Assembly (NCBI RefSeq): GCF_003610195.1
Contig: NZ_RAPO01000004.1
Location: forward strand, 434,001 to 498,000
From: Halopiger aswanensis
Lineage (GTDB): Archaea; Halobacteriota; Halobacteria; Halobacteriales; Natrialbaceae
DNA length: 64,000 bases
Reading direction: 5' to 3'
The notes beneath the pieces are model-generated. The model worked only from the letters and a program-made list of their open reading frames with translations. It ran no database searches and was not told the origin of the DNA. Position numbers and translations under genes: made by a program. Positions 17,112-49,782 of the stretch are shown piece after piece (position 1 is the first letter of the stretch; every line of letters starts with the position of its first letter).

Positions 17112-17242
17112 CTCGTGCACCACGGTTGGTCGCGGACCAAGTAATAGGTGCCGACGTATCAGCCCCAGTGCTCGAGCAGCGAGACTCGGTCGCGACGATC
17201 GCGAGGAGAACGATTAAGCGCGAGCACCCGTGAGTCGTTCGC

Positions 17243-18862: not shown

Positions 18863-19076
18863 GGTCGGGCGGTGTGGCGCCGGCTACCGCTCGTCCGACC
18901 GCGTCTCGACGACGCCGCACTCATCGGTACGGCGGCAACAATCAGCCGTTCAAATTCATGGAAAGCGACTCCTGACTGGAACGCAGGTCGCTGACTCGGT
19001 ATTTTTCGCGCGATCACCGGGTGAGCGGAGCCGGGATAGTTAACACCCCCGGCGACAACAACAGGCGTGGTTGCCG

Positions 19077-25002: not shown

Positions 25003-26040
25003 TTATCGGAACTGCGGCATAACTTCGTCGGCGAACAGTTCCATTCCGTCGGTCTCCGGGAAGTCGATGAACCAGCCCTGGAACTTCGTTACGCCAGCCT
25101 CGATCCGGCGTTCGATGGCTTCGGCACACTCCTCTGGCGTGCCCATGATGAAGAACTCGCGGGCGTCCGCTTCGGTTTCGATCGGCGCCTGATCCTGATA
25201 CTCCTCTTCGAACTGAATCGGCGTCATCAGATCGATCAGCGACTCGAGTTTGTCCTCGTCGCGGGTACAGATGACGTGGCCGTCCCAGGAGTACTCGATC
25301 TCGTCGGGGTCGCGCCCGACCGTCTCGCAGTGGTCCTCGATCACCCCGATCTTGTGCTCGAGGGTGTCGACGTCGCCGTTGAAGACGTCGGTGTTCCAGA
25401 CGTCGGCGTGTTTGGCGACGAGTTTCAGCGTCACCTGTTCGCCCTGGCCGCCGACCAGAATCGGCGGGTGCGGGTCCTGCACGGGGCCGGGATCGCAGTA
25501 GGCGTCCTCGATCTGGTAGCGCTCGCCCTCGAAGGTCGCGCCCTCGCCGGTGTCGGTCGCCCACATTTCCTTCATCAGCCGGATGCCCTCGTCGAGGCGC
25601 ATCAACCGCTCGAAGCCGTCGCGGTACTCCCAGCCGTAGGCGTCGTACTCGGGTTCGTGCCAGCCCGCGCCGAGGCCGAGCTCGAGGCGACCCTCCGAGA
25701 TGACGTCGAGCGTCGCGGCCATCTTCGCGACTAAGGCGGGGTTGCGGTAGTCGTTACAGAGCACGAGCGACCCGAGGTTGATGTCGTCGGTGAAGCCGGC
25801 CATCGCCGACAGCAGCGTCCAGACCTCGTACTCGGCGTGGTCGCGCCCCAGCATGAGGTGGTCGGGCGCCCACGCGGCGTCGAAGCCCAGTTCCTCGGCT
25901 TTCAGGATGCCCTCCTTCGTCGTCTCCCAGTCCAGTCGCTCGTACCGGGGCGTGTCGCGGTGGACCGGCTCGTCGTCGCCCTCATCGGGGGCGCCGGCGA
26001 ACACCGGCACGTTGTACTCGAATGTAATGTCTTCGGACAT
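25003..26040 (-). CDS. LLM-class (luciferase-like) F420-dependent-type oxidoreductase
   Basis: 345 residues forming a luciferase-like TIM barrel. Family blocks are LGFDAAWAPDHLML, FTDDINLGSLVL, GRLELGLGAGWHEPEYDAYG and PPILVGGQGEQVTLKL. In archaea this group commonly binds F420; the best-known sugar example is F420-dependent glucose-6-phosphate dehydrogenase. The start is three bases after the stop of the rhamnonate-dehydratase-like gene, so the two are in one operon. That context makes a role in sugar or sugar-acid oxidation attractive, yet substrate and cofactor are inference. Confidence 0.83.
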   Translation of the reverse strand: MSEDITFEYNVPVFAGAPDEGDDEPVHRDTPRYERLDWETTKEGILKAEELGFDAAWAPDHLMLGRDHAEYEVWTLLSAMAGFTDDINLGSLVLCNDYRNPALVAKMAATLDVISEGRLELGLGAGWHEPEYDAYGWEYRDGFERLMRLDEGIRLMKEMWATDTGEGATFEGERYQIEDAYCDPGPVQDPHPPILVGGQGEQVTLKLVAKHADVWNTDVFNGDVDTLEHKIGVIEDHCETVGRDPDEIEYSWDGHVICTRDEDKLESLIDLMTPIQFEEEYQDQAPIETEADAREFFIMGTPEECAEAIERRIEAGVTKFQGWFIDFPETDGMELFADEVMPQFR

Positions 26041-26043
26041 GGT

Positions 26044-27249
26044 TCACTCGACGGCGAAGTGTTCCAGTGCTTCGTGGTTCAGCTTCGTGCTGACGCCGGG
26101 CTCGTCGGGGATCGGAATCGACCCGTTTTCGGGCGAGGGCGGATTCTCGAAGATCGCGTCGGCGTAGGTCGACTCTTTCTCCTCCTGCTGTTCTTCGAAC
26201 CACTCCGGCATCGGGAAGTACTCCGCCATCGGCATGTTCGTGTGCGCCGCGATGGCGTGTAGCGTCGGATTCGTGCCGGCGTGGGGAATCACGGGGACGT
26301 CGTGAACCTCGGCCATATCGGCGACCTTCATCATCTCGGTGATGCCGCCGACCCGACCGACGTCGGGCTGGAGGATGTCGACGGCCTCCGCCTCGAGGAG
26401 GTCCTCGTGGCCCCAGCGAGTGAACTCGTGCTCGCCGCCGGAGATCGGCATTGGCGCGGCCTCGCGAACCTCGGCGTAGCCGTCGATGTCGTCGGCGATG
26501 ACCGGCTCTTCGACCCACGCCATGTCGTAGGGCTCGAGGCGGTCGAGCATCTTCTTGGCGTAGCGGACCGACCAGCCCATGTAGGCGTCGGCCGCGATTT
26601 CGATCTCGTCGCCGACGGCGTCGCGGACCGTCTTGACGATCTCTTCGTTTTTCTTCATCCCCGAGCGGCCGGCCTCGGGGCCGTGGAGGAAGCGCAGCTT
26701 CATCGCGTCGAAGCCCTCCTCGGCGTACTGGACGGCCTCGCGCTCGAGTTTCTCCATGTCGACGGGGTGGAGGTTCGACGCATAGGCGGGAATTTCGTCT
26801 TTGGTGGGACCGCCGAGCAGTTCGTACACCGGCTTGCCGGCTTCCTTGCCCGCGATGTCCCAGAGGGCCTGATCGACCGCGCTGATGGCCATGACGGCGA
26901 CGCCCTTCCGACCGAACGGCAGCGTCGCGCGGTACATCTGTTCCCAGAGTTTCTCGCGCCGGGTGGGATCTTCGCCCATCACGATCTTCGAGAGCGTCTC
27001 CTCGACGACGGTGGCGATGGCGCCGCTTCCCCAGTTCCCGACGCCGACGCCGGTGATGCCGGCGTCCGTCTCGATCTCGACGACGACGTCACCCACGGGC
27101 CCCATCCACTTGCGGCGGGCCTGCGGGTTCTCGCCGTCGACGTTCCGATACTCCTCGTACTTCGACATAATCGTCACGAGCGGGAACTCGATAAACTCGC
27201 CCCACGACTCGTTGCTGATCTTGGTTGCACTGACGTCTGTGATTTCCAT
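26044..27249 (-). CDS. L-rhamnonate/L-fuconate dehydratase-like protein (enolase superfamily)
   Basis: 401 residues from ATG 27249 (MEITDVSATK); the open frame extends further upstream without coding character. Mandelate-racemase/enolase superfamily residues are in place: metal ligands Asp 221 (AADAYMGW), Glu 247/248 (WVEEP) and Glu 273 (SGGEHE), then QPDVGRVGG and the catalytic-position His 323 (IPHAG). Acid-sugar dehydratases with this SGGEHE...QPD...H pattern convert L-rhamnonate, or the related L-fuconate, to the 2-keto-3-deoxy acid. First gene of a pair with the LLM oxidoreductase. Confidence 0.85.
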   Translation of the reverse strand: MEITDVSATKISNESWGEFIEFPLVTIMSKYEEYRNVDGENPQARRKWMGPVGDVVVEIETDAGITGVGVGNWGSGAIATVVEETLSKIVMGEDPTRREKLWEQMYRATLPFGRKGVAVMAISAVDQALWDIAGKEAGKPVYELLGGPTKDEIPAYASNLHPVDMEKLEREAVQYAEEGFDAMKLRFLHGPEAGRSGMKKNEEIVKTVRDAVGDEIEIAADAYMGWSVRYAKKMLDRLEPYDMAWVEEPVIADDIDGYAEVREAAPMPISGGEHEFTRWGHEDLLEAEAVDILQPDVGRVGGITEMMKVADMAEVHDVPVIPHAGTNPTLHAIAAHTNMPMAEYFPMPEWFEEQQEEKESTYADAIFENPPSPENGSIPIPDEPGVSTKLNHEALEHFAVE

Positions 27250-27493
27250 CGTCTTTCCTCGTAGGTGCCACTGCTTTCGGCAACGATAAAATCCTTTCCA
27301 CTGCTCGGATCTCGCCGCCGTTTGTGTTTGTCTGTCAGCTTCGTTTGCGCGCTCATCCCCACGTCGGCCGCTCGAGTGCAATCGATCACGCGAGGACTGA
27401 CTCCTCTTAACGGCCGTCCTCGTTATATCCAGTACGCTATCGAACCCGGTGCCCTCTGTGATCGATCCCGCATTGCCTTCCGAAGAGCGTAAA

Positions 27494-27550
27494 GTTATAT
27501 GTGGCTGGGTTACAAACCACCAGTAGCTCGACCAGAGCGAGAGGTAACTC
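27494..27550 (+). promoter_or_regulatory. Promoter, candidate operator and ribosome-binding site of the zinc dehydrogenase gene
   Basis: A TATA-like gttatatg lies at 27494-27501. Just downstream is the perfect short palindrome ggttacaaacc (27508-27518), well placed for a repressor. A gaggt Shine-Dalgarno-like sequence at 27541-27545 sits nine bases before ATG 27555, which supports that start. The palindrome was not found before the other catabolic genes. Confidence 0.4.
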
Positions 27551-27554
27551 CAGC

Positions 27555-28589
27555 ATGAAGGCTATAGTTCACACCGGACCCAGATCTATCGAAATCCGCG
27601 AACGAGAGAAACCGACGGTTGCCGCCGACGAAGTGCTCGTTCAAGTCAACTCCGCAGGCCTGTGCGGCAGCGATGCCCACGCCTATACGTACGAAGACGG
27701 CTATGAATGGATCCCGTTGCCCCGCATCATGGGCCACGAATACTCCGGCGAAGTCGTCGAGGTCGGCGAGGACGTCACCGATTTCGACGTTGGCGATCAC
27801 GTCGTCGAAGAACCGATCCACGACTGCGGCTCGTGTTTTCAGTGCAAGAACGGCCAGCCCAACGTCTGCCGGAACTTCGAGATCACGGGGATGCACAACG
27901 ACGGCGCGTACACCGAGTACACGACCGTCAAACCCAAAGACCTGCACCACATCCCCGACAGCGTCCCGCTCAGACAGGCGAGCATCACCGAACCGCTGAG
28001 CATCGCGACGCGAGCGGTATTTGACCAGTCGACCGTCACACCCGGCGATCTCGTCCTCGTCGAGGGCCCCGGCCCGATCGGCGTCCTCGTTGCGGCCGTC
28101 GCCGACTCGCTGGGCGCGAACGTCGTCGTTTCGGGGCTCGGCAAGGACACCGAGTACCGCCTGCCGCTCGTCGAACGGCTCGGCGTCGACACGATCGACG
28201 TCGAAAACGGCGATCTCGAGGCGTTCGTCGAGTCGCAGGCCGACGGCGGCGGCTTCGACGTCGTCTTCGATACGACCGGCCACAAGAGCGGCGTCGAGAT
28301 GGGCGTCGAGCACGTCCGCAAGGGCGGCCAGGTTGTCGTCGTCGGATTGCCCGGCGCACCGAGCGAACTGTTCATGACGCCGGTCGTCCGCGGCGAAGTC
28401 ATGGTGAACACGTCCTACGGATCGACCTGGCGGAACTTCGAACAAGCAATCCGTCTTCTGGACGGCGGCGAGATCGACGCCGACGAAATCATCGACACCT
28501 CCTACAGCATCGAGGACCCAACCGCAGCGTTCGATGCGTTCCTCGAGTCCGAGACCTGCAAACCGGTCTTCTCGTTCGCAGACCTATGA
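27555..28589 (+). CDS. Zinc-dependent medium-chain dehydrogenase (sorbitol/threonine dehydrogenase-like)
   Basis: 344 residues. Catalytic-zinc residues lie in CGSDAHAY and GHEYSGEVVEVG. The four structural-zinc cysteines are in CGSCFQCKNGQPNVC. The NAD(P) fold follows with VEGPGPIGVLVAA. ATG 27555 is supported by an upstream gaggt. It sits in the deoxysugar catabolic cluster, divergent from the dehydratase gene. It could be the 2-keto-3-deoxy-rhamnonate/fuconate dehydrogenase (an SDR in characterised bacterial pathways) or oxidise another released sugar or polyol; this is inference. Confidence 0.88.
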   Translation: MKAIVHTGPRSIEIREREKPTVAADEVLVQVNSAGLCGSDAHAYTYEDGYEWIPLPRIMGHEYSGEVVEVGEDVTDFDVGDHVVEEPIHDCGSCFQCKNGQPNVCRNFEITGMHNDGAYTEYTTVKPKDLHHIPDSVPLRQASITEPLSIATRAVFDQSTVTPGDLVLVEGPGPIGVLVAAVADSLGANVVVSGLGKDTEYRLPLVERLGVDTIDVENGDLEAFVESQADGGGFDVVFDTTGHKSGVEMGVEHVRKGGQVVVVGLPGAPSELFMTPVVRGEVMVNTSYGSTWRNFEQAIRLLDGGEIDADEIIDTSYSIEDPTAAFDAFLESETCKPVFSFADL

Positions 28590-28719
28590 GCGGCCATCAA
28601 GCGGTGCGATCGCTGTAGCGCCGGCTGCGAGCCGGGATATCGACGCCGTTCGGCATCAATCTCGAGCCGTTTTGCGACACAACGTTTAGTAGCGCTCGAC
28701 GCGTCGCATTTCGTATACG

Positions 28720-29589
28720 ATGGTGCTGGATACCCATACGCACGCGTGGACGCGACCGAGCCGAGACCACCCCTGGGTCAACGGCCCGCTCGTGGAGACG
28801 GTCGACGACTTTTCAGTCGACACCGTCTACGACGCCGACGCGCTGCACGCGGACATGGAGGCGATCGGCGTCGACGAGGCCGTCGTCGTCGGCTACCCGA
28901 TCTGCGAGTGGACCGACAACCGCTACACGCTCGAGTGCGCCGAGCAGTACGACGACCTCTACGGGATCGTCATGCTGGACCAGTTCGCCGACGACGCGGC
29001 CGCACAACTGCGCTCGTGCATGGCGACCGACGGCATCCTCGGCTTCCGACTCGGCGCGATCTGTCCCTACGATCGGATGTGGGAGACGTTCGATCCGGAC
29101 GTGGACTGGCTGCGCGACGCCATCGACGAGCCCGAGTTCTGGGACGCGGCCCGCGACACCGACGCCCTGGTGCAGATTCTCGCCCACTACGACCAGCTGG
29201 ATCAGGTTGTCGACCTGATCGAGACGTACCCCGACCTCAGTTACGCGCTCGATCACTTCTGTCACGCCGGTCCCGACACCGATCCCGACGAGGTGTTCGC
29301 ACCCCTCGAGCCGCTGGCCGCCGACGAGTACGACGTCGCCGTGAAAATTTCGGAGATCGTCCACCGCTCCGAGGAGGGCTTCCCCTACGCCGACATGCAC
29401 GATCACGTCCGCTGGCTGCTCGAGACGTTCGGGCGCGAACGGGTCGTCTGGGGCTCGGACTTCCCGAACGTCAGCGACGAAGCGAGCTACGAGGAAAGTC
29501 TGCAGTGGCTCGAGCACGTCGACGGCCTCTCGCAAAAAGACCGGGAGTGGCTCACCGAGCGGTCGTTCAAGGACCTGGCGGGGATCTGA
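28720..29589 (+). CDS. Amidohydrolase 2-family hydrolase, candidate L-rhamnono/L-fucono-lactonase (COG3618 type)
   Basis: 289 residues, TIM-barrel metal hydrolase. It begins VLDTHTHAW, with the D-x-H-x-H metal ligands at 4-8, and has the late catalytic Asp in VVWGSDFPNVSDE. Sugar lactonases of this COG3618-like group open the lactone formed by rhamnose or fucose dehydrogenase. It is 130 bases after the zinc dehydrogenase on the same strand and convergent with the FAH hydrolase. Lactone specificity is inferred from these neighbours. Confidence 0.8.
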   Translation: MVLDTHTHAWTRPSRDHPWVNGPLVETVDDFSVDTVYDADALHADMEAIGVDEAVVVGYPICEWTDNRYTLECAEQYDDLYGIVMLDQFADDAAAQLRSCMATDGILGFRLGAICPYDRMWETFDPDVDWLRDAIDEPEFWDAARDTDALVQILAHYDQLDQVVDLIETYPDLSYALDHFCHAGPDTDPDEVFAPLEPLAADEYDVAVKISEIVHRSEEGFPYADMHDHVRWLLETFGRERVVWGSDFPNVSDEASYEESLQWLEHVDGLSQKDREWLTERSFKDLAGI

Positions 29590-29619
29590 CCGCTATCCGT
29601 TCACCGAATCGGTACCGCG

Positions 29620-30468
29620 TTACTCTTCCGTGCCGACGACCGGATTCTCGAGCGTCCCGATACCCTCGATTTCGGCTTCGACGGTGTCGCCCGGCGAGAG
29701 GAGTTCGGGCGGGTCGCGGAAGATACCGACGCCGCCGGGCGTGCCGGTCGAGATGACCGTCCCCGGCCGCAGCGTCGTGAAGTTGCTGATGTACTCGATA
29801 ACCTCGCCGACGTCGAAGATGAACTCCGCGGTCGTCGACTCCTGTTTGACCTCGCCGTTGAGACGCAGTTCGACCTCGAGATCGTTGGGGTCGACGGCGT
29901 CGGGGCTCGTCAGCGCGGGCCCCATCGGCGCGAACGTGTCGTAGCTCTTCCCGCGGAAGAACTGGCCGTCCTCGAACTGGGCGTCGCGCGCGCTGACGTC
30001 GTCGATGACCGTGTAGCCCGCGACGTACTCCTCGGCCTCCTCGGCCGACACCTCGCAGGCGGTGCGGCCGATGACGATGCCGAGTTCGACTTCGTAGTCG
30101 ACCTGCTCGACGTCGTCGGGGTGGACGATCGGGGCCTCGGGATCGGTGACCGTCGACGGCGACTTCGCGAACAGCATCGGCTTCTCGGGGATCTCCTCGT
30201 CCTGCTCCTCAGCGTGGTCGTGGTAGTTCAGCCCGACGCAGATGATCTGGTCGACTGCCGACGACGGCACCGGTGCGAGGCGGTCCTCGGGGTCGTCGAT
30301 TTCCGGGAGCTCGCCCGTCTCGACGGCGCGACGGACGCGTCGTCGGTACCCCGGCGACGCGAGTTCCTCGAGTGTTGGCTCGCCGAACCGGGTCAGATCG
30401 TACGTCTGGTCGTCTACGGTTACGCCCCAACGGACGCTACCGTCGGTCGCGAATCGAACGAATTGCAT
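29620..30468 (-). CDS. Fumarylacetoacetate hydrolase-family protein, candidate 2,4-diketo-3-deoxy-L-rhamnonate/fuconate hydrolase
   Basis: 282 residues from ATG 30468 (MQFVRFATDG). A short N-terminal domain precedes the FAH fold: FAKSPSTVTDPEAPI, metal-binding YEVELGIVIG, DDVSARDAQF, and the C-terminal STGTPGGVG. In bacterial and haloarchaeal oxidative rhamnose pathways a FAH-family enzyme splits the diketo acid to pyruvate and L-lactate, and the other pathway members surround this gene. Other diketo acids remain possible. Divergent from the Gfo/Idh gene across 138 bases. Confidence 0.83.
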   Translation of the reverse strand: MQFVRFATDGSVRWGVTVDDQTYDLTRFGEPTLEELASPGYRRRVRRAVETGELPEIDDPEDRLAPVPSSAVDQIICVGLNYHDHAEEQDEEIPEKPMLFAKSPSTVTDPEAPIVHPDDVEQVDYEVELGIVIGRTACEVSAEEAEEYVAGYTVIDDVSARDAQFEDGQFFRGKSYDTFAPMGPALTSPDAVDPNDLEVELRLNGEVKQESTTAEFIFDVGEVIEYISNFTTLRPGTVISTGTPGGVGIFRDPPELLSPGDTVEAEIEGIGTLENPVVGTEE

Positions 30469-30573
30469 CGTCTCGAACTTTCCAGCCTGAATCTTGAATC
30501 TTTCTCTCGCACGGCGCCGCCGACGGTTCATCGACAGATCACTTCAGCCAGTGGTACCCGGTTAACAGGATGA

Positions 30574-30606: not shown

Positions 30607-31716
30607 ATGTCCTATCAGGTAGCGGTGATTGGAACTGGAACGGAACCGGACGACCCCGGACGCGACGGGTACGCCATGGCGTACCACCACGCGGAAGGGT
30701 ACGAAAAACACGATCGGTGCGAGCTCGTCGCCTGCGCCGATATCGTCCCCGAAAACGCGGAAGCGTTCGCCGCCGAGTACGGGATCGCCGACGAGAACGT
30801 CTTCGAGGATTACGAGGTCATGCTCGAGACGGTCGACCCTGACATCGTCTCGCTGTGCGTTCCGCCGGTGATCCACGCGTCGATCGCGATCGACTGTTGC
30901 CGCGCGGGCGTCGACGCGATCCACTGCGAGAAGCCGATGGCCCAGACCTACGGCGGCGCGCGCATGATGACCCAGGAGGCCGCCCGCCACGACGTCCAAT
31001 TGACGTTCAATCACCAGCGTCGGTTCAGCGACGCCGTCCGCACCGCGAAACAGCTGCTCGACGACGGCGAGATCGGCGAGCTAGAGCGCGTCGAGTTCTC
31101 CGCGCCGGTCGGCATCTTCGACTACGGGAGCCACTCGTTCGACCTCTGTAACTACTTCAACGACGAGGTACCCGCCGAGTGGGTGCTCGGGCAGATCGAC
31201 TACAGCGAGGAGAACGTCGTCTTTGGGTCGCACAACGAGACCCAGGCCGTCGTCATGTGGGAGTACGAAAACGGCGTCCACGGGCTCGGCACGAGCGACG
31301 CTACCGGCGACGGTGGCCCGACGAGCGCCGTCGAGTGTCACAACCGACTGATCGGTACCGAGGGAACGATCGAACTCGGCCCCGAGGGCGACGAGGACGA
31401 GGATCTCCCCGTACTGCGCATCCGCCGCGCCGGCGACGACGAGTGGGAGGCCGTCGAGACCGAGGACGGCCTCCACAGCTGGGAGTTCATCGACCGCGCC
31501 ATCGCCGAGAACGTCCGCTGTCTCGAGGAGGACGAGGAACCGGAACTCAGCGCGGAAAACGCCCTGAACGCGACCGAACTGATCTTCGGGACGTGGGAAT
31601 CGGCTCGCAAGCGCGGCCGGGTCGACCTGCCGCTCGAGATCGACGACAACCCGCTCGATGCGATGGTCGAGTCCGGCGAACTGAATCCCGAACCGATGGA
31701 CGAGGAGGCCGAATAG
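30607..31716 (+). CDS. Gfo/Idh/MocA-family NAD(P)-dependent oxidoreductase
   Basis: 369 residues. The N-terminal Rossmann strand VAVIGTGTEPDDPGRDGYAM has an insert after the glycine motif. HCEKPMA is the family's EKP catalytic-lysine motif, and LTFNHQRRFSDAVR is the substrate-side block. The C-terminal alpha/beta domain completes it. The stop codon touches the start of the TIM-barrel gene at 31717, so they form a tight operon. The pairing of a Gfo/Idh enzyme with a sugar isomerase-like TIM barrel is common in inositol and uronate or other sugar catabolism; the substrate here is unknown. Confidence 0.88.
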   Translation: MSYQVAVIGTGTEPDDPGRDGYAMAYHHAEGYEKHDRCELVACADIVPENAEAFAAEYGIADENVFEDYEVMLETVDPDIVSLCVPPVIHASIAIDCCRAGVDAIHCEKPMAQTYGGARMMTQEAARHDVQLTFNHQRRFSDAVRTAKQLLDDGEIGELERVEFSAPVGIFDYGSHSFDLCNYFNDEVPAEWVLGQIDYSEENVVFGSHNETQAVVMWEYENGVHGLGTSDATGDGGPTSAVECHNRLIGTEGTIELGPEGDEDEDLPVLRIRRAGDDEWEAVETEDGLHSWEFIDRAIAENVRCLEEDEEPELSAENALNATELIFGTWESARKRGRVDLPLEIDDNPLDAMVESGELNPEPMDEEAE

Positions 31717-32469
31717 ATGGCCCGGATCTCGATCTGCGTCGAGATGGTCTACGACGACGAGCCGTTCGTCGACCGCATCTCGCGGGCCGCCGAAGCCGGC
31801 GCCGACGCCGTCGAGTTCTGGGACTGGCGAGAGAAAGATCTCGAGGCGATCGTCGACACCGCCGAGGTGAGCGATATTCCGATCGCTGGCTTCGTCGCCG
31901 GCGGGACGCTCACCGATCCCGACGCGGCTGACGACGCCGTCGAAACGATCCGGGAATCGATCGCGACCGCCGCCGAGTACGATGTCCCGACGCTAATCGT
32001 CACGACCGGACAGGACCAGGACGGACTGGACCGCGACACGCAGTACGACAATATCGTGGACGTGCTCTCCCGCGTCGCCCCCGACGCTGAGGAAGCCGAT
32101 GTGACGCTCGTCCTCGAACCGCTGAACACCGCCGTCGACCACCCGGGCTACTTCCTCGAGACGTCGGCCGAGGGGTTCGACATCGTCGACGACGTCGGCT
32201 CGCCGAACGTACAACTGCTGTACGACGTCTACCACCAGCAGGTCACCGAAGGGAACGTCATTCAGACGATCACCGACAACGTCGACCGGATCGGCCACGT
32301 CCACATCGCGGACGTGCCCGGCCGACACGAACCCGGGACGGGAGAACTCGACTACGAGACGATCATCGGAGCGATCGACGAGGCCGGCTACGACGGCTAC
32401 GTCGGCTGCGAGTTCTCGCCGACCGGCGACGCCGACGCGGCGGTCGAGACCGTCCTCGAGTGGCGGTAG
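31717..32469 (+). CDS. Hydroxypyruvate-isomerase-like TIM-barrel protein (AP-endonuclease 2 family)
   Basis: 250 residues, the usual length for Hyi-like proteins. Metal/active-site blocks include FWDWREKDLEAI, LVLEPLNTAVDHPGYFL, LLYDVYHQQV, HVHIADVPGRHEPGTGELDY and CEFSPTGD. It starts immediately after the stop of the Gfo/Idh gene. Known activities include hydroxypyruvate isomerase and several ketose or inosose isomerases. A decayed copy of its C-terminus is at 5366-5626. With no KduI-type isomerase visible in the window it is a candidate for isomerising 4-deoxy-5-ketouronate, which is speculative. Confidence 0.85.
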   Translation: MARISICVEMVYDDEPFVDRISRAAEAGADAVEFWDWREKDLEAIVDTAEVSDIPIAGFVAGGTLTDPDAADDAVETIRESIATAAEYDVPTLIVTTGQDQDGLDRDTQYDNIVDVLSRVAPDAEEADVTLVLEPLNTAVDHPGYFLETSAEGFDIVDDVGSPNVQLLYDVYHQQVTEGNVIQTITDNVDRIGHVHIADVPGRHEPGTGELDYETIIGAIDEAGYDGYVGCEFSPTGDADAAVETVLEWR

Positions 32470-32586: not shown

Positions 32587-34020
32587 ATGCACCACCTCGG
32601 TAGTACAGCGACGACTGCGTCGGACGCGCGAACGGACGTCACGATCGGCTACGTCGGCGGCGGCAGTCAGGGCTGGGCGCACACGTTCATCAACGACTTG
32701 CTCCAGTGTCCGGACGTCTCGGGGCAGGTCAGACTCTACGACGTCGATTACGAGGCCGCCCAGCGCAACGCCGAACTCGGAAACGCGCTGACGACCCGCA
32801 AGGAGGCCGTCGGCGACTGGACGTTCGAGGCCGCCGAAACGCTCGCGGCGGCGCTCGAGGACGCCGACTTCGTGATCTGCTCGACGCAGGATCCGCCCGA
32901 GGAGACGTTCGTTCACGACATCGACGTCCCTCAGGAGTACGGTATCTACCAGACGGTCGCCGACACCTGCGGGCCGGGCGGTGCGGTCCGCGCGCTGCGG
33001 TCGATTCCGCAGTACCGCGAGATCGCGGCGACGGTTCGCGAGCGGTGTCCCGACGCCTGGGTGTTCAACTACACGAACCCGATGACCGTCTGCACCCGAG
33101 CGCTCTACGAGGAGTACCCCGACATCAACGCCATCGGCCTCTGTCACGAAGTGTTCCATATCCAAATGCTCCTCGCCGAAATCGCCGAGAAGTACATCGA
33201 CGGTGCCGACGACGTCTCCGGCAGCGAGATCGACGTCACCGTCAAGGGCATCAACCACTTCACGTGGATCGACGAGGCCTACTGGCGCGATCACGACGTC
33301 TTCCAATATCTCGACGCGGAACTCGAGGAGCGCAAGCCGCTCCCGAGTTTCGAGCCCGGCGACCTCGCGGACGCGGATTACTGGATCAACCACCACGAAG
33401 TTGCGTTCGACCTCTACGACAAGTTCGGTCTCTTAGGCGCCGCCGGCGACCGCCACCTCGTGGAGTTCGTCCCGTGGTACCTCTCGATCGACGACCCCGA
33501 GGAGATCCAGCGCTGGGGGCTCCGCTTGACGCCCAGTTCCGCCCGCGTCAGCGACAGCGACGGACCGGCGAAGATGGACCAGTACCTGACTGATCCGGAC
33601 GAGTTCGAGTTCACAGAGACCGGCGAGGAAGCCGTCGACATCATCCGCGCACTGTGCGGCCTCGAGCCGCTGAAGACCAACGTCAACTACCCCAACGTCG
33701 GCCAGACGCCGGACCTGCCCGACGGTGCGGTCGTCGAGACGAACGTCCTCATCACCGGGACCGGCGTGAAGCCGATCACCGCCGGCACGCTCCCCCGCGA
33801 AGTCCGGAACATGGTCACGACCGCGATTCACAACCAGGAAACGCTCGTCGAAGCCGGCTTCGCCGGCGATCTCGATCTCGCGTTCGAGGCGTTCCTCAAC
33901 GAGCCGCTCGTGACGCTCCCTCGCGAGGAAGCACAGGAGCTGTTCGCCGAACTGATCGAGATCGAGCGCGACTACTTCGAGTCGTACGATCTCGAGAACG
34001 CGGCCGTCCTCGAAAACTGA
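32587..34020 (+). CDS. GH4 alpha-galacturonidase (CHEV-motif)
   Basis: 477 residues from ATG 32587. The NAD-binding GGGSQGWAHTFINDLL opens the protein, as in GH4 enzymes. Met-ligand and catalytic blocks include FNYTNPMT and the diagnostic CHEV at 186-189 (Cys codon 33142-33144) followed by FHIQ. Within GH4, CHEV marks alpha-galacturonidases, in contrast to CHSV in alpha-glucosidases/galactosidases. The enzyme uses NAD+, Mn2+ and a free cysteine, oxidising at C3, and would be cytoplasmic. It would trim GalA from rhamnogalacturonan fragments. Lies 117 bases downstream of the TIM-barrel gene on the same strand. Confidence 0.92.
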   Translation: MHHLGSTATTASDARTDVTIGYVGGGSQGWAHTFINDLLQCPDVSGQVRLYDVDYEAAQRNAELGNALTTRKEAVGDWTFEAAETLAAALEDADFVICSTQDPPEETFVHDIDVPQEYGIYQTVADTCGPGGAVRALRSIPQYREIAATVRERCPDAWVFNYTNPMTVCTRALYEEYPDINAIGLCHEVFHIQMLLAEIAEKYIDGADDVSGSEIDVTVKGINHFTWIDEAYWRDHDVFQYLDAELEERKPLPSFEPGDLADADYWINHHEVAFDLYDKFGLLGAAGDRHLVEFVPWYLSIDDPEEIQRWGLRLTPSSARVSDSDGPAKMDQYLTDPDEFEFTETGEEAVDIIRALCGLEPLKTNVNYPNVGQTPDLPDGAVVETNVLITGTGVKPITAGTLPREVRNMVTTAIHNQETLVEAGFAGDLDLAFEAFLNEPLVTLPREEAQELFAELIEIERDYFESYDLENAAVLEN

Positions 34021-34200: not shown

Positions 34201-37164
34201 TTAGTCGCCGTCGGGGTCGATAAACGCGAACAGCTGGTTCTCCGCGCCGGTCACGTTCCAGTGGCGGATGTCCGCGCCCGGATCGGGATCACGTTCCCAG
34301 ACGTCGGCCGCGAGGTTAGCGTGGGTCGGCTCGAGCGTGTAGCCCGTGCCGCTCTCGGGCACCGCCGCAAACTTCTGGTAGTCGGCGCCCTCCCACTGGC
34401 CGAGCTCGAGGTTCGTGCCGGTGTCGGTACCGCCGTCGGCGGCCTCCAGCACGAGGTCCTCGTTGTCAGCCGCGGCGATGCGGTAGATACCGTCTTCGAG
34501 TTCGATCACCCTCCACGTTTGTCCGCTGGCCTCGCCCACGGTGTCGTTGTAGACGTTCGCCCCGTCGGCGAGTTCGCCGTCGGCGCTCATCACGATGTCG
34601 TCGCTGTTGAGCTGGGAGGTTAGACGGTAGGTGCCCTCCGTGAGGTCGACCGTGATCGTCTCGGAGTACGATGTCGTACAACCGCTTTCGGCGGTGGCGT
34701 TCAGCGTGACGGTGTACTCGCCGGGACCGTCGTAGCTATGCGTAGCTGACCACCCCGTCGCAGTCGTGCCGTCGCCGAACTCCCACGTCAGGGTGTCGAT
34801 CGACTCCTCGTCGCCGGAGACGTCCTCCGCCTCGAAGTCGATGGACTCGCCCACGTCGACGCGGGTCGCACTCGGCACGGCCCGCGCTAGCGGCTCCGCT
34901 TCGGTGATCGTGATCGTCTCAAAGTCGGTCGTCGTCTCCCCGTTCTTGGCCGTCACGGTCAGCTTGACGGGATACGTCCCCAGTTCGTCGTAGGTGTGAC
35001 TGACCGACCATCCCGTCGCAGTCGTGTCGTCGCCGAACTCCCACGTCAGGGAACGGACCTTGTTGCCGTTACCCGTCAGGTCGACCGCTTCGAATTCGAT
35101 CTGGTCGCAGGGAGTCGCGTCGGTTTCGCTCGCGGATATCTCGGCGAGTCGGTCGTGTCCCGCGGGCTCGAACGAGGTCATGATGTTAGGTTTCGGCGGA
35201 TCGTCCATCCCGTGGCCGAGGAAGAAACTGGGCCACGGCGGCTGGTTGTAGCCCACGTTCTGCCGGGCGATACCGGTCCGGTACTGCGGGTCGTGCAACA
35301 GCGTATACAGCCGTGTATCCGTCTCGTGGGGCGTCGCGTACAGACGCAGGTGGCTGCTGTCCTCGGCCCGCCAGATGACCTCCTCGCGCCAGTCACCGAG
35401 AATGTCCCCCGACAGACACGGGTTGCCCTTCGAGGAGTTGTTCGAGCGCGTTCCCTCGAAGGATTTCAATAGGTCGAGTTCTTCGGTCTCCGGGTTCCAC
35501 TTCTTGATCCAGCCGACCCCGTATCCCTCGTCCCAGCCGAGGAAGTCGTGATCGAGCAGTTCGCGGTGCAGATCGCCGGTCCACCAGATAGCCGAGTTGA
35601 TGGAATTGATGGGTGTTTCGCTGATCTGCTCACCGCGAGCGCTGTACGTCCCCACTCCGTCGCTGGAGAGCGGTTCGCCGCCCCACGCTTCCGCGCCGGA
35701 GTATCTCGGATCGATGTCCGCGACCAGCGCTCTGCCAACGTCCTCACCGTTCCTGACGGCCCAGATATACTCGCCGGTCTCGGCATCACGCATCGAGAGA
35801 CTCGGTTCCCCCTCAGGCGGATACTCGGCGGGGACCAAGATTTCCAGGCCCTCCCGATCCGGGAGGAAATCGCCGCAGTGCTGGGCGTCGGGGTTGGCCA
35901 TCGTCGTCGTGTGCAGGCCGGTGCCGTCGTGGTCGATGACCGCCCCGCCGAAGACGATCTCGTCCTTCCCGTCGCCGTCGACGTCCGCGGTGGCCAGGCT
36001 GTGTGCGCCCTTGCCCTCGTAGTCCTCGTTCCCGTCTTCGCTGTCGAAGAGCCAGCGTAACTCGAGGTCGCCTTGCCGGAAGTCCCACGCGGCGAGCATC
36101 GTCTTTTCGTAGTAGCCCCGCGTGAATACGATGCTCGGTCGCTCGCCGTCGAGGTAGGCAGTCCCCGCGAGGAACCGGTCGACTCGGTTCCCGTAGCAGT
36201 CGCCCCACTGGCAGGGGTCGCCCCGCGCGGGCTGGAACTCCTCCGTCGCGAGTTCCTCCCCGGTCTCACCGTCGAAGACGGTGAGATACTCCGGCCCCTC
36301 GAGAACGTAGCCGTCGTCGTTCGTCCAGTCGGCGTCCGGGTCGCCGATGACGTTGCCGACCCCGTCTTCAGTCCCGTCGGCCGTCCGAACCACGAACTCC
36401 GACTTGCCGTCCCCGTCGAAGTCGTACACTAAGAACTGCGTGTAGTGCGCGCCGGCCCGGACGTTCTGGCCGAGGTTGATCCGCCAGAGGTGCTCTCCCT
36501 CTATCGTATACGCGTCGAACAGGACGTCGCTCGTGTGCCCCGACTGGGAGGGGTCCTTCTGGTTCGACGGGGTCCACTTCTGGACGATGTCGAGCGTGCC
36601 GTCGCCCGTAAGGTCGGCCACGCTCGCGTCGTTGGCGTGGTACGTGACCGTCTCGCCGTCCTCGCCCTCGACGGGATCGGGCTTGTTCAGCGGGATTTCC
36701 TTGTACTGTTCGTCCCAAACCTCGACGGACTCCGACATCCCGGGTTTCCGGTCGCCGTCCTTCCTGCCGCTGGCCCGACCGTTGCCGACCGCTCGAACCG
36801 CGTACGTCGAGTCCGTCGTTCCGTCGGGATCGAAGTAGTTCGTACTCTCGGTGATCGGTTTGTTGTTCAGTCGCTCGCCGTCGCGATACACGTGGAACCC
36901 CAGATCGCGGGGCTCGGTTCCGAGGAGTCGCCAGCGGACGAGTACCCCGTCGCCGGACGGCACGGCCACGAGGCCGCGGTCGAGGGCCTCTGCCTGTCGT
37001 TTCGAGCCGTGCTTTTGCTTGCCGTTTCCGCGGGCGTTACCCTGACCGTGGGACGCCGTGGCCACGCCGGAGACGACCGCCGCCGTCGATCCGGCTGCCA
37101 TCCCGCTTAGGATCTCGCGTCGATACCGTTGGCTGCTCATATCGCTCGTATTTGGATCTGTCAC
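34201..37164 (-). CDS. Tat-exported rhamnogalacturonan lyase (PL11) with two PKD domains and a ricin-type lectin domain
   Basis: 987 residues. A twin-arginine signal (RYRREILSGMAAG, Arg 15-16) sends it out folded. The N-terminal FN3-like segment (LVAVPSGDGVLVRWRLLG) and the large propeller with Ca-binding repeats (DLTGDGTLDI, DFDGDGKSEF, DVDGDGKDEI) and CQWGDCYGNRVDRFLAG are typical of PL11, ending near residue 665. Two PKD domains (about 671-755 and 756-840) each contain LTWEFGD-TTATGWS. A ricin-B-like module with Q-W repeats fills 841-987. Normal bacterial PL11 enzymes are near 620 residues, so the tail is an addition for binding substrate or surface. This is the depolymerase that starts the pathway. 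Confidence 0.94.
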   Translation of the reverse strand: MTDPNTSDMSSQRYRREILSGMAAGSTAAVVSGVATASHGQGNARGNGKQKHGSKRQAEALDRGLVAVPSGDGVLVRWRLLGTEPRDLGFHVYRDGERLNNKPITESTNYFDPDGTTDSTYAVRAVGNGRASGRKDGDRKPGMSESVEVWDEQYKEIPLNKPDPVEGEDGETVTYHANDASVADLTGDGTLDIVQKWTPSNQKDPSQSGHTSDVLFDAYTIEGEHLWRINLGQNVRAGAHYTQFLVYDFDGDGKSEFVVRTADGTEDGVGNVIGDPDADWTNDDGYVLEGPEYLTVFDGETGEELATEEFQPARGDPCQWGDCYGNRVDRFLAGTAYLDGERPSIVFTRGYYEKTMLAAWDFRQGDLELRWLFDSEDGNEDYEGKGAHSLATADVDGDGKDEIVFGGAVIDHDGTGLHTTTMANPDAQHCGDFLPDREGLEILVPAEYPPEGEPSLSMRDAETGEYIWAVRNGEDVGRALVADIDPRYSGAEAWGGEPLSSDGVGTYSARGEQISETPINSINSAIWWTGDLHRELLDHDFLGWDEGYGVGWIKKWNPETEELDLLKSFEGTRSNNSSKGNPCLSGDILGDWREEVIWRAEDSSHLRLYATPHETDTRLYTLLHDPQYRTGIARQNVGYNQPPWPSFFLGHGMDDPPKPNIMTSFEPAGHDRLAEISASETDATPCDQIEFEAVDLTGNGNKVRSLTWEFGDDTTATGWSVSHTYDELGTYPVKLTVTAKNGETTTDFETITITEAEPLARAVPSATRVDVGESIDFEAEDVSGDEESIDTLTWEFGDGTTATGWSATHSYDGPGEYTVTLNATAESGCTTSYSETITVDLTEGTYRLTSQLNSDDIVMSADGELADGANVYNDTVGEASGQTWRVIELEDGIYRIAAADNEDLVLEAADGGTDTGTNLELGQWEGADYQKFAAVPESGTGYTLEPTHANLAADVWERDPDPGADIRHWNVTGAENQLFAFIDPDGD
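34754..35050 (-). repeat. Near-identical DNA segments encoding the two PKD domains
   Basis: A block of about 40 bases at 34754-34793 recurs at 35012-35051 with very few differences, both containing cccgtcgcagtcgtg and cgccgaactcccacgtcagg. It encodes the LTWEFGD-TTATGWS core of each PKD domain. This marks a tandem domain duplication within the PL11 gene, or later conversion between the copies. Confidence 0.75.
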
Positions 37165-37840: not shown

Positions 37841-40027
37841 TCAGTCAGCGTTGCCTGTCCCTTCCGCGGTCGGTGGGTCGTCCGCGATCGGCTCGCTGTC
37901 CCAGTACTCGTGGTTCTCGAGCGCGCGGAAGCAGGCGGTGTGCTGGACGCCGTCCTCGTCGGTACAGTCGATCATCTCCGGTTTCTCCGTCTTACAGACC
38001 TCCCGGGCCTTCGGACACCGCGTGTGGTAGCGACAGCCCGAGGGCATGTTCGTCTGGTCGGGAACGTCGATCGTCCGCATCGGGTTCTCGTCGGTGTCCT
38101 CAGCACGATCGAGTTCCGGCGTCGCCCAGCGCAGCGCCTGCGTGTAGGGGTGTTGCGGATTGTGGATGATCTGCTCGGGCGAGCCGATCTCCACGAGTTC
38201 CCCGAGGTACATGACGCCGATCCGGCCGCCGGTCTTCTCGGCGAAGTAGCGGGCGTTCGAGAGGTCGTGTGAGATCGCCAGGAACGACGTATTAAACGTG
38301 TCCTGCAGTTCGATCATCAGGTCCATCATGCTGACCCGCAGCGAGACGTCGAGTGCCGACACTGCTTCGTCGGCGAGGATGAGATCCGGATTGATCAACA
38401 TTGCGCGGATCAAGGCGACCCGCTGTTTCTCGCCGCCCGAGAGCTGGTGTGGGTACCGGTCGATGTAGTCCTCCGGTGGACTGATCCCGACGTACTCGAG
38501 CATCCCCAAAATCCGCTCCCGGCGATCGTTTCCGTCGAGATCCGAGTGCCACCGCTTGAGTGGCGTCTCGAGAATCGTCCGCACGCGGTGGTGGGAGTTG
38601 AGCGAACTGCCGGGGTCTTGGTGGACGATCTGGAGGGCCCGTCGAATCTCCTTGTCGGCAAGGGTACTACTGTTGCCGCTGCCTTCCCAGATGTCCCGTC
38701 CCTTGTACTCGATCGTCCCATCGGTCGGCTGCTGCAGTCCGACGGCGGTCTTCCCGAGCGTCGTCTTCCCACAGCCCGATTCGCCGACGAGAACGACCAC
38801 GTCGTTCTCGTAGATGTCGAGCGAGACGCCGTCGACGGCAGTAACCACGTCCGAATCGCCGAAGTCGAGTAACCCGTCGTTCTCGGAGCCGAACTCTATC
38901 TCGACATCGTTCAACGACACGACCGGCTCTTCGGCTGCCGTCCGATCGGCGGCCGTCCGCCTGACCAGGTCGCTCGAGTCTGACTTAGCGAACGCTTTAT
39001 CGATGTTTTCGATCGAGTCCTCCCAGTGGTGACAGTAGACGTCGTGGTCCGTCCCGGCGTCGTAGGCGTCGGGGTCGTGGGCCCGACACTCGTCGTCGGC
39101 GAGCGGACACCGCGGGTGGTAGGAACACCCCTCCGGGATGTTGACCGGATCGGGGCTCTCGCCCTCGATCGGCCGCATCTCCTCGAGCGGGGCCGAGAGG
39201 TTCGGCGTCGCGTTCAGCAACGCCCGCGTGTAGGGATGGGCGGGATCCGCGAGGATCTCGTCGGCCGGCCCGACCTCCGCGAACTCGAAGGCGTACAGCA
39301 CGGCGAGTCGATCCGCAAGGTCGGCGACCAGCGGCAGGTCGTGGGTGATGAAGACGATCGTGAGGTCGTGTTTCTCCTTGATATCCTCGAGCAGCGAAAT
39401 GATCGACCGCTGCATCAGCAGGTCAAGCGCCGCCGTCGGCTCGTCCATCACGAGCATCTCCGGATCGAGGACCAGACTCAGCGCGATCAGCACGCGCTGT
39501 TTCATTCCGCCGGAGAGTTCGTGCGGGTACGAGTCGAGCATGCGCTCCGGTTCGAGGTACAGGTCCTCGAGAAGTTCCTTCGCGCGCTCGAGGCCCCGTT
39601 CGACGTTGTAGTCGTGGGCGCTAAGCGTCTCGACGAAGTGAGTGCGTATCTTCAGGACCGGGTTGAACGAACTCATCGCGCCCTGGAAGACCATCGAGAC
39701 CTCCTCCCAGCGGAACTGGCGGAGTCCCTCCTTCGAGAGGTCGGTGACGGAGATCGGCTCCCCGTCCTCGGGATAGTACGTCACCTCGCCGGTCGTGACG
39801 CCCGGTTCGGGCACGGCGTCGAGCATCGCCGAGGCGAACATCGATTTTCCGGAGCCGGATTCGCCGATGACGCCGACGATTTCGTCGCGCTGGACGTCGA
39901 AATCGACGTCATTGAGGACACGAGACTGTCCGCGGTTCATGCCGAACGCGACGGAGGTATCTCGGAGTTTCATGATGACGTCCTCGTTCGGTCGGTCGAT
40001 GTCCGCTGCCGACTGCGAGACCGTCAT
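37841..40027 (-). CDS. Fused DppD-DppF ABC transporter ATPase
   Basis: 728 residues with two complete ABC ATPases in tandem. The first half has GESGSGKS, LSGGMKQR, LVMDEPTAALD and a CSYHPRCPLADDEC tail. The second has GESGCGKT, LSGGEKQR, LILADEAVSALD and CRYHTRCPKA. A linker of about 50 residues joins them. In importer 1 the same two ATPases are separate genes, so this is a gene fusion or the other a split. It is the last gene of importer operon 2, 115 bases after the DppC-like gene. Cargo is presumably oligosaccharide released by the nearby lyase. Confidence 0.93.
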   Translation of the reverse strand: MTVSQSAADIDRPNEDVIMKLRDTSVAFGMNRGQSRVLNDVDFDVQRDEIVGVIGESGSGKSMFASAMLDAVPEPGVTTGEVTYYPEDGEPISVTDLSKEGLRQFRWEEVSMVFQGAMSSFNPVLKIRTHFVETLSAHDYNVERGLERAKELLEDLYLEPERMLDSYPHELSGGMKQRVLIALSLVLDPEMLVMDEPTAALDLLMQRSIISLLEDIKEKHDLTIVFITHDLPLVADLADRLAVLYAFEFAEVGPADEILADPAHPYTRALLNATPNLSAPLEEMRPIEGESPDPVNIPEGCSYHPRCPLADDECRAHDPDAYDAGTDHDVYCHHWEDSIENIDKAFAKSDSSDLVRRTAADRTAAEEPVVSLNDVEIEFGSENDGLLDFGDSDVVTAVDGVSLDIYENDVVVLVGESGCGKTTLGKTAVGLQQPTDGTIEYKGRDIWEGSGNSSTLADKEIRRALQIVHQDPGSSLNSHHRVRTILETPLKRWHSDLDGNDRRERILGMLEYVGISPPEDYIDRYPHQLSGGEKQRVALIRAMLINPDLILADEAVSALDVSLRVSMMDLMIELQDTFNTSFLAISHDLSNARYFAEKTGGRIGVMYLGELVEIGSPEQIIHNPQHPYTQALRWATPELDRAEDTDENPMRTIDVPDQTNMPSGCRYHTRCPKAREVCKTEKPEMIDCTDEDGVQHTACFRALENHEYWDSEPIADDPPTAEGTGNAD

Positions 40028-40142
40028 CGCGACACCTCCAGTGCGGTCCGCCGGTCGTCGCTTTGATCGACGTTGGCGTGCGCGTACGGTCGTCGAATCG
40101 GTCGAGTCGGTCGTACCGAAGTCGCATTCGTCGTAGCCGAAA

Positions 40143-41300
40143 TCATACGTTCATCATGTCCTTGGTGTCGCTTTCGGAGTCCGGTTCCAGCTGGTCGTCG
40201 TCGCCCAGATCCTGATGGCGCGCCCTGATGCGCGGGTTGAACACCTGGTCCAGCGACTGCGCGAGCAGGATGAGCCCGATCGCGATCCCCGAGATAGCGA
40301 TCATCGGAACGAGCAGCCAGTGGTACGCAGACGGCCGGTAGAGTGCGCCGGCGTTGTACGCGTTGTTCAGCATGACGCCCCAGTTGGCGTCGGAGAACGG
40401 CAGCACGCCGAGGAAGTACAGCGCGACGGCTGCGAAGATGATCCGGCGGGCTGCGTTCACCATATTCACCACGATGTACGGCATCAGGTGCGGAATGATC
40501 TCTCGGAGGAGGATCCACCGCGTCGACAGGTCCATCGCCCGCGCCGCCTCGACGAACGACTCGCTGCGGATCGTCAACACCTGCGAGCGAATCGCTCGAG
40601 CCAGCCCCGCCCACGCGGCGACCGCCAACAGTACGCCGAGCGTGACGGGGTTGTTGATCCAGGCCTCGAGCAGCGTCGCGAGGACGATCACCAGCGGCAG
40701 GCCGGGAATATTGATGAATATGTCGGTGATCGTGCTGAGCACGGTGTCGATCGTTCCGCCCTTGTAGCCGGCAACGACACCGAAGATGGTACCGACGGCG
40801 ACGGTAAAGACCGCACCCGACGCCATCATGATGAGGATCGAGGGCGTCGAGTGGATCAGCATCGCGAACACGTCCCTGCCCGCGACCGTGGTCCCGAGCG
40901 GGAAGTCCCAGTTCTCGAACGCGCCCAACAACTGCGGTCCGTGGGCCGGATGGGTCGGCTCGACCAGATAGACGCCGACGGTGGCCATGAGGAAGTAGAT
41001 CCCGAGGATGCCGAACGAGACGACCGCTCGCCAGTCGCTGCGCAGGATCGACCACGGTGTTCGGATGTACTCCTCGAGGAACCGATCGATCCGGTCGCTG
41101 CGCGTCTCCGCGACGGAGGCAGTCGTTTCGAACGGCGAGTCCGTTCCGATCGTGCCGCCGTCGCTTCGCATCTGCGCGGCTGTCTCGTCAGTTTGTTCCT
41201 CGGCAGTCGTTTCCACGGACTGCTCGGGAACGAACTGGTCGATCGAGTCGCCCGATCGCCCGTTCGGCGGTTCCGAGGACTCGTCGTCAGAACGCTTCAC
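40143..41300 (-). CDS. ABC transporter permease, DppC/OppC family
   Basis: About 385 residues from GTG 41300. An SD-like ggaggtgag lies just upstream and overlaps the end of the DppB gene; GTG 41318 is the longer alternative. A long hydrophilic, acidic N-terminal tail of about 90 residues precedes the first helix (FGILGIYFLMATVGVYLV). The BPD_transp_1 domain follows with the EAA loop EAARAMDLSTRWILLREIIPH. The tail is longer than in the DppC of importer 1. Overlaps DppB by 14 bases, indicating coupling. Confidence 0.9.
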   Translation of the reverse strand: MKRSDDESSEPPNGRSGDSIDQFVPEQSVETTAEEQTDETAAQMRSDGGTIGTDSPFETTASVAETRSDRIDRFLEEYIRTPWSILRSDWRAVVSFGILGIYFLMATVGVYLVEPTHPAHGPQLLGAFENWDFPLGTTVAGRDVFAMLIHSTPSILIMMASGAVFTVAVGTIFGVVAGYKGGTIDTVLSTITDIFINIPGLPLVIVLATLLEAWINNPVTLGVLLAVAAWAGLARAIRSQVLTIRSESFVEAARAMDLSTRWILLREIIPHLMPYIVVNMVNAARRIIFAAVALYFLGVLPFSDANWGVMLNNAYNAGALYRPSAYHWLLVPMIAISGIAIGLILLAQSLDQVFNPRIRARHQDLGDDDQLEPDSESDTKDMMNV

Positions 41301-42282
41301 GGCCCTCACCTCCTGCACGGGGATCGATTTTACCGTAGGTCAGGTCGGCGATGAACAGCGCGATGACGACGGCGATCGTGATGATCGTGAACGCGCCCAT
41401 CATCAGCGGGTAGTCGCGCGCCCGGACTGCTTGAATCATGTAGTAGCCCATGCCCCTGTACGCGAAGATCTCCTCGAGGACGACGGCGCCGCCGAACATG
41501 GTCCCGAGAGAGATCATCAATCCGGTGTACATCGGCAAGATCGCGTTGCGGGCGACGTACCGGACGGCGATCGTTCGGTCGGGCAACCCGCGAAGTCGGG
41601 CGACGCGGAGGTAATCCTCGCCGAGGACGCGAACGCTGTTGCCTCGCATCGTCAGCGATGCCGCGCCCGACGCGACGAACATCGAGAGGACGGGCAACGC
41701 CGCGTGGTGGAGGATCCCCAACATGAACGGCAGGTTGAACCCGGCTTCGACGCCCGTCGGTCGACGACCCGACGTCGGGAACCAGTTGAGTCGGTAGGCG
41801 AATGTGATCAACAGCAAGAGCGCGAGCACGTAGAACGGGATCGACGTGATCGTCGTCGCGTAGCCTGTGAGCCCGACGTCGAACTTGCTGCCCTCCCAGT
41901 AGGCCATGAGCGCACCGAGCGAGATGCCAACCGTGAAGCTGAGGAACACCGCCCAGCTCATGACGAACAGCGTCCACGGGATCGCATCGCCCATGATCGC
42001 AGCGACTGAGGCGTTCTGGCTCATCGAGTGACCCATATTACCTTGAGCAAGGGCAACCATGTAGTCCACGTAGGCAACGTGGATCGGGTCCTGTGGGTTG
42101 ATATTCATGTAAATCTCCGCGAGCTCGTAGGCCTCCTGCGGATTGTCGAGCTCCGGTCCGATTCGTGCAACGAATGCGTCGACCGGATTCCCGGGCATCA
42201 TTCGCGTCATGACGAACGCGAGGGTCATCACTGCCCAGATGGTAAATACGGCCTGACCAAGCCGTCGTATCTTCCAATTCAT
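41287..42282 (-). CDS. ABC transporter permease, DppB/OppB family
   Basis: 331 residues from ATG 42282 (MNWKIRRLGQAVFTIWAVMT); the frame is open further upstream but the DppB fold starts here, as in the paralogue at 8934-9953. MMPGNPVD follows the first helix. The EAA loop is YLRVARLRGLPDRTIAVRYV. It lies 76 bases after the binding-protein gene and overlaps the DppC gene. It forms the channel of importer 2. Confidence 0.92.
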   Translation of the reverse strand: MNWKIRRLGQAVFTIWAVMTLAFVMTRMMPGNPVDAFVARIGPELDNPQEAYELAEIYMNINPQDPIHVAYVDYMVALAQGNMGHSMSQNASVAAIMGDAIPWTLFVMSWAVFLSFTVGISLGALMAYWEGSKFDVGLTGYATTITSIPFYVLALLLLITFAYRLNWFPTSGRRPTGVEAGFNLPFMLGILHHAALPVLSMFVASGAASLTMRGNSVRVLGEDYLRVARLRGLPDRTIAVRYVARNAILPMYTGLMISLGTMFGGAVVLEEIFAYRGMGYYMIQAVRARDYPLMMGAFTIITIAVVIALFIADLTYGKIDPRAGGEGREAF

Positions 42283-42358
42283 TGTATGACCACGTCGTAG
42301 TACGGCATCATTAGTATTGTTATCTACCGTTATAAAACCCCGTAATCGCCTGAGAGCC

Positions 42359-49343: not shown

Positions 49344-49782
49344 GTGCGAGAGACGTATCACCGACTCGAGGTCGGCCGTCTTCGTTCTTACGGTGTTCCC
49401 GATACCCGAACGGTCGATCGGAGCGCCGACCGTTCGGGAGCGATCCCGCCGTAATCGGGCCGACGGAAAACGTCTGTTACTCGACGTAGGCTCGAGATAC
49501 TGCCCGTTGGCGACCCTCGTGCTGGCTCTTCGTTTCATCGTCGTTATTGTTGCTCCCGCTATCGGTCGAACGGACCGAGAAATCCAGTCGAACGGATAGA
49601 TCAGTTGGTGTGGGCATCGTCAAGCCGGTCACGCAACTATTTGTCTCTCAGGAACAGATTACCCCACCAGTTCTGATACACTATCGACTACCGCCCCGTG
49701 TTAGCTATATTTCCCCATCACGATAGAAAGTGGCACGGACAACATCTATAATCTTAAGTGATAATCCCTCACATGACTTCGT
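49344..49782. other. Intergenic region upstream of GH105, no gene recognised
   Basis: 439 bases between two divergent genes. An AT-rich segment at about 49745-49770 (catctataatcttaagtg) precedes ATG 49783 by 15-40 bases and is the likely GH105 promoter. No further protein-coding frame or repeat was recognised. Confidence 0.45.

Follow-up and report, generated by a model that had tools for sequence, protein, structure and literature searches.

Glycoside hydrolases of family 4 (GH4) work by a redox route: NAD+ oxidizes C3 of the sugar, C2 gives up its proton, the aglycone departs, and the sugar is reduced again. In this reaction a cysteine and a histidine bind the Mn2+. Among the characterized members is LplD of Bacillus subtilis, whose gene is presumably clustered with an Lpl-type sugar importer. 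The class of GH4 enzymes that carries a CHEV motif was reportedly treated by Thompson et al. in 2013. The redox-elimination mechanism has been described (PMC4650693). In haloarchaea, pectinolytic gene clusters of H. turkmenica were described in 2011, and one of them, a pectate-lyase cluster, included a glycosyl hydrolase whose activity was not named (PMC3102087). Haloarchaeal isolates with GH28, PL11, and PL22 genes showed no growth on pectin, polygalacturonate, or rhamnogalacturonan (PMC9726719), and one natronoarchaeon grew marginally on galacturonate-based polysaccharides (PMC12343721). Since haloarchaea with pectinolytic genes grow poorly or not at all on pectin or rhamnogalacturonan, the working of such genes is in question, and the GH4 gene considered here provides a clean, assayable test of it. 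A search of the open-access literature returned no description of a characterized archaeal alpha-galacturonidase.

The gene occupies positions 32587-34020 on the forward strand of the window, by which we mean the whole 64,000-nucleotide stretch of Halopiger aswanensis DNA that was analyzed. The open reading frame encodes 477 amino acids with a single terminal stop and no internal stops, and the protein matches both GH4 Pfam families well above their cut-offs (PF02056, E 3.8e-50; PF11975, E 6.2e-44). CHEV lies at residues 186-189, its first letter being residue 186, and the first-pass annotation of a GH4 enzyme with this motif at these residues therefore stands. Other GH4 hallmarks include GGGS near the N-terminus, Asn164-Pro165, and Cys186-His187. 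The GC content of 64.6% and GC3 of 88% are as expected for a real haloarchaeal gene. A RefSeq-annotated orthologue on Halopiger xanaduensis plasmid pHALXA01 (HALXA_RS18465, 92% identical) agrees with it in ATG start and length. Inspection by eye found no signal peptide.

The best match in the PDB is 3FEF, which is B. subtilis LplD deposited as an alpha-galacturonidase (E 4.5e-106 across residues 17-458; the two are 43% identical along almost their whole length). The remaining GH4 structures match at about E 6e-26 or worse, and the GH4 fold of the Halopiger protein is already fixed by its homology to 3FEF. Using the LplD sequence from the PDB-search alignment, we built GH4 trees of 83-89 proteins with SH-aLRT branch support. 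One branch, with 100% support, parts all CHEV proteins, LplD among them, from all CHSV and CHSI proteins, a side that includes E. coli MelA together with Sinorhizobium and haloarchaeal GH4s. LplD and a Nitratireductor CHEV protein form long branches, and the split survives both masking of the motif and removal of long branches. The first-pass annotation had named LplD as an example of the characterized CHEV enzymes to include in a phylogeny, and the Halopiger protein groups with it and not with CHSV-type enzymes (100% SH-aLRT, whether or not the motif is masked), on a bacterial CHEV sampling that is thin, namely LplD and one Nitratireductor plasmid. The Nitratireductor gene adjoins kduI, uxaC, an ABC importer, and GH88. 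Across 68 CHEV proteins, 74 positions are invariant or nearly so, including Asn164-Pro165, Cys186-His187, and a GDRH motif at residues 287-290 that is absent from the CHSV enzymes shown. MelA-type enzymes share the GH4 family, the NAD site, and the Cys-His motif with the Halopiger protein, however, they are about 30% identical or less, carry CHSV, lack GDRH, and form their own clade. A MelA-type placement was considered and is ruled out by the CHEV motif and the separate, fully supported clade. Asgard GH4s from a Lokiarchaeota genome (L038:1138-2451, L142, and L138) have CHEF, CHEL, and CHQI at the motif; these unassigned GH4 variants branch with the CHEV half of the tree at modest support.

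The locus has a set of RG-I genes in one cluster: a PL11 endo-lyase, a GH88/GH105-type enzyme, a GH78 enzyme, an ABC importer, and rhamnose genes. Directly upstream of the GH4 gene on the same strand, Pfam identifies a Gfo/Idh/MocA oxidoreductase (30607-31716) and a xylose-isomerase-like TIM barrel protein (31717-32469), the latter separated from the GH4 start by about 117 bases. On the opposite strand, the PL11 rhamnogalacturonan lyase (34201-37164; Pfam RGL11_C, E 6e-231) has two PKD domains and, at its C-terminus, a ricin-type lectin domain, and its N-terminus has a Tat-like signal by eye. The H. xanaduensis neighbor is shorter, at 2007 bases. The reverse strand also encodes an oligopeptide/oligosaccharide-type ABC importer (37841-44221) with fused ATPases, permease(s), and a family 5 binding protein; a second permease is annotated in the orthologous H. 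xanaduensis cluster. The GH88/GH105-type unsaturated uronyl hydrolase (49783-50832) is on the forward strand. On the other side of the GH4 gene, Pfam identifies a GH78 alpha-L-rhamnosidase (14397-17123, reverse strand) and a PL22 oligogalacturonate lyase (19071-20288, forward strand), with a GH28 protein between them (17243-18862, forward strand) whose nearest solved relatives are of polygalacturonase type, exo-acting ones included. A putative non-phosphorylative L-rhamnose block comprises a luciferase-like (LLM) oxidoreductase (25003-26040, reverse strand), an enolase-superfamily dehydratase whose orthologue is named rhcD, L-rhamnonate dehydratase (26044-27381, reverse strand), and a zinc dehydrogenase, an amidohydrolase that may be a lactonase, and a FAH-family hydrolase (27501-30531). 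From the GH78 gene to the GH88/GH105-type gene, the block is largely syntenic in H. xanaduensis.

Other genes of polysaccharide character accompany this set. A GH115 protein of the alpha-glucuronidase family (44590-47553) and a mannonate-dehydratase-like (UxuA) protein (48306-49538), both on the reverse strand, sit in the pectin cluster and are kept in H. xanaduensis, which suggests that the cluster also targets side chains of glucuronic acid. The polysaccharide cluster has a sulfatase and a beta-lactamase-fold protein at its margins, at 800-2194 and 57981-59495. To the left of the window, about 34 kb from the GH4 gene, is a paralogue with 77% identity (C4:432148). Its locus (C4:420000-434500) holds a GH106 rhamnosidase, a divergent PL11, an IclR regulator, and an enolase-family dehydratase, and constitutes a second RG-I locus.

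Considering Pfam, the PDB match, the tree, and the conserved pectin neighborhood, we think it likely that the gene encodes a cytoplasmic, NAD+- and Mn2+-dependent alpha-galacturonidase of LplD type serving the surrounding pectin/RG-I degradation cluster, and an alpha-galacturonide is most likely the class of substrate on which it would act. That RG-I oligomers are its main natural substrate is for us an evenly balanced proposition. The lack of a signal peptide in the GH4 protein and the Tat-like start of PL11 imply that cutting is likely extracellular, followed by import and exo-trimming in the cytoplasm. We propose that secreted PL11 would cut RG-I outside the cell, leaving an unsaturated GalA end, and that the ABC importer would take up the resulting RG-I oligosaccharides. 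GH105 would then remove the unsaturated uronic acid, GH78 the rhamnose thus exposed, and GH4 the next alpha-linked GalA, a predicted cleavage of GalA-alpha-1,2-Rha, after which the cycle could repeat, with freed rhamnose entering the adjacent rhamnose pathway. In the GH4 step, NAD+ would bring about transient oxidation at C3, elimination, and re-reduction, with Mn2+ bound by Cys186 and His187. Alternating trimming of RG-I by GH78 and GH4 is plausible given the clustering of PL11, GH105, GH78, importer, and rhamnose genes. The Halopiger enzyme resembles LplD in its identity, its CHEV motif, and its side of the tree, and differs from it in being archaeal and a predicted high-salt protein, in being clustered with a Dpp/Opp-type ABC importer instead of an Lpl-type sugar importer, and in that the genome has two RG-I-linked copies. 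The assignment is sound and fairly ordinary: an enzyme class known from bacteria has here an archaeal member, set in a well-formed RG-I cluster.

We surveyed relatives of the protein in 391 sampled haloarchaeal genomes, of which 87 have a GH4 match (E below 1e-10) and 58 (15%) have a relative that is 44% or more identical. The first-pass annotation had regarded CHEV enzymes as otherwise known mainly from bacteria, which is wrong at the genome level: archaeal CHEV GH4s are fairly common in Halobacteria and not exceptional. All homologues fetched at this level of identity, about 65 distinct proteins, carry CHEV. The GH4s of about 30% identity from the same haloarchaeal genomes all have CHSV or CHSI, so the motif is no chance occurrence. 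RefSeq names the haloarchaeal CHEV proteins only "glycoside hydrolase family 4". Matches in a wider sample of the phylum (295 genomes) were confined to the order of the host, a scan of genome contigs gave one Halovivax and one Lokiarchaeote locus as its sole matches, and scanning IMG/VR yielded no relatives. The host genome has six GH4 genes, three with CHSV and three with CHEV, the latter being the gene at 32587-34020, the 77% paralogue, and a copy with 50% identity (C2:953335).

Haloarchaeal CHEV proteins form two well-supported clades, A and B, plus a few basal ones, and the protein studied here belongs to clade A, as does its 77% paralogue. We scored about 20 kb around each CHEV gene at 33 clade A and 24 clade B loci, with PL11, PL22, PL1, and GH28 as pectin markers and GH10, GH11, and UxaC as xylan/glucuronate markers. 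Pectin markers occur at 25 of 33 clade A loci and 0 of 24 clade B loci (Fisher p 2e-9), and xylan/glucuronate markers at 0 of 33 and 22 of 24 (Fisher p 8e-14), p values that are indicative only because the loci are phylogenetically related. GH78 is near 14 of the 33 clade A genes, and across the 391 genomes clade A is carried by 15 of the 19 with PL11 (p 8e-15). Clade A genes of Haloterrigena turkmenica adjoin either rhamnogalacturonan lyases and GH78 or pectate lyases and GH28, and the unnamed glycosyl hydrolase of the earlier study (PMC3102087) appears to correspond to one of them. Clade B genes of Halosolutus, Halorussus, and Halocatena adjoin GH10/GH11 xylanases, with UxaC and UxuA also present in the first two. 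At the sequence level, 35 positions are near-fixed differently in the two clades, including Gln122 (Gly in B), Asp126 (Ala in B), Met166-Thr-Val-Cys169 directly behind Asn-Pro, and Phe294 close behind GDRH. Of these, LplD agrees with clade A at 20 and with clade B at 2, so the Halopiger enzyme retains the features of the one characterized alpha-galacturonidase, and clade B has diverged. CHEV had been put forward as the signature of alpha-galacturonidases, however, it is not diagnostic, as the haloarchaeal sister clade that shares it sits in xylan/glucuronate clusters. Because CHEV is common to the pectin-linked and xylan-linked clades, it is clade membership and gene neighbors, and not the motif, that support an alpha-galacturonidase.

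The same evidence bears on what else the enzyme might do. Some of it favors a role on homogalacturonan-derived (di)galacturonate, with the terminal GalA of RG-I left to the GH28 protein, since GH28 and PL22 genes are in the cluster, exo-polygalacturonases are among the nearest solved relatives of that GH28 protein, and one subgroup of clade A adjoins PL1 pectate lyases and GH28 instead of PL11. A member of clade A with such neighbors is HTUR_RS23220 on Haloterrigena turkmenica plasmid pHTUR02, a CHEV protein 69% identical to ours that differs in lying beside pectate lyases and GH28 (homogalacturonan) and not PL11 and GH78. RG-I galacturonohydrolase activity does occur in GH28. The nearest subgroup and the 77% paralogue are nevertheless linked with genes for PL11, GH78/GH106, and the catabolism of rhamnose, and we give this role roughly one chance in three. 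The two kinds of substrate are not mutually exclusive, and GH28 and PL22 would offer other routes for GalA within the cluster.

A different uronic acid is a further consideration, as CHEV might mark uronidases in general and the protein be an alpha-glucuronidase. The GDRH motif is common to clade A, clade B, and LplD, and may hold the uronic acid carboxylate in either clade, conceivably that of any uronate; clade B CHEV proteins are found in glucuronoxylan clusters, and GH115 and UxuA-like genes are in the window. We regard this as unlikely, given that no xylanase or UxaC neighbor was found at any of the 33 clade A loci and that LplD sides with A rather than B where the two clades differ. Least credible is a neutral alpha-galactosidase or alpha-glucosidase, the names that databases give to similar GH4s. 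The sole NCBIfam matches are indeed to an alpha-galactosidase subfamily model and to AglA, yet the scores are far too low (260 bits where the cut-off is 486, and 94 where it is 650, respectively), and the CHSV enzymes, E. coli MelA included, form their fully supported separate clade without GDRH. An alpha-galacturonidase of LplD type remains the reading that we prefer.

Clade and context reveal a second haloarchaeal CHEV class that is tied to xylan, and we find this split more interesting than the alpha-galacturonidase itself. In the open-access literature searched, we found no description of the clade B group. We lean slightly toward the view that CHEV GH4s comprise two functional classes, with clade A as alpha-galacturonidases for pectin/RG-I and clade B as distinct uronidases in glucuronoxylan clusters beside GH67, the motif marking alpha-uronidases generally. 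Replacement of GH67 by clade B as the xylan alpha-glucuronidase was tried as an explanation and failed, since 29 of 31 clade B genomes have GH67. UxaC likewise goes with clade B, in 30 of the 31 genomes. In 23 measured pairs, GH67 and the clade B gene are on the same contig, 3-25 kb apart. With GH67 alongside, clade B would complement that enzyme rather than replace it, its targets being, for example, unmethylated alpha-GlcA or the GalA that lies close to the reducing terminus of xylan. The split cautions against reading GH4 specificity off the CHEV motif by itself, and the 35 separating positions are candidates for what distinguishes the pectin-linked from the xylan-linked class.

The clade B copy of the host (C2:953335) shares CHEV, GDRH, and the GH4 catalytic residues with the gene at 32587-34020; it differs in being found with xylanases, UxaC, UxuA, and GH67 and at the 35 near-fixed positions, for instance in having Gly for Gln122 and Ala for Asp126. 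At this clade B locus (L042:7288-8760, forward strand; C2:946000-962000), ABC importer genes and UxaC are near and GH67 is about 13 kb away. At three other loci (L073, L074, and L075), a CHEV GH4 close to clade A and one of clade B lie within 4 kb of each other. In the annotated one of these loci, that of Haloarcula marina (L148), the pair adjoins an importer of UgpC type and a DapA-like protein.
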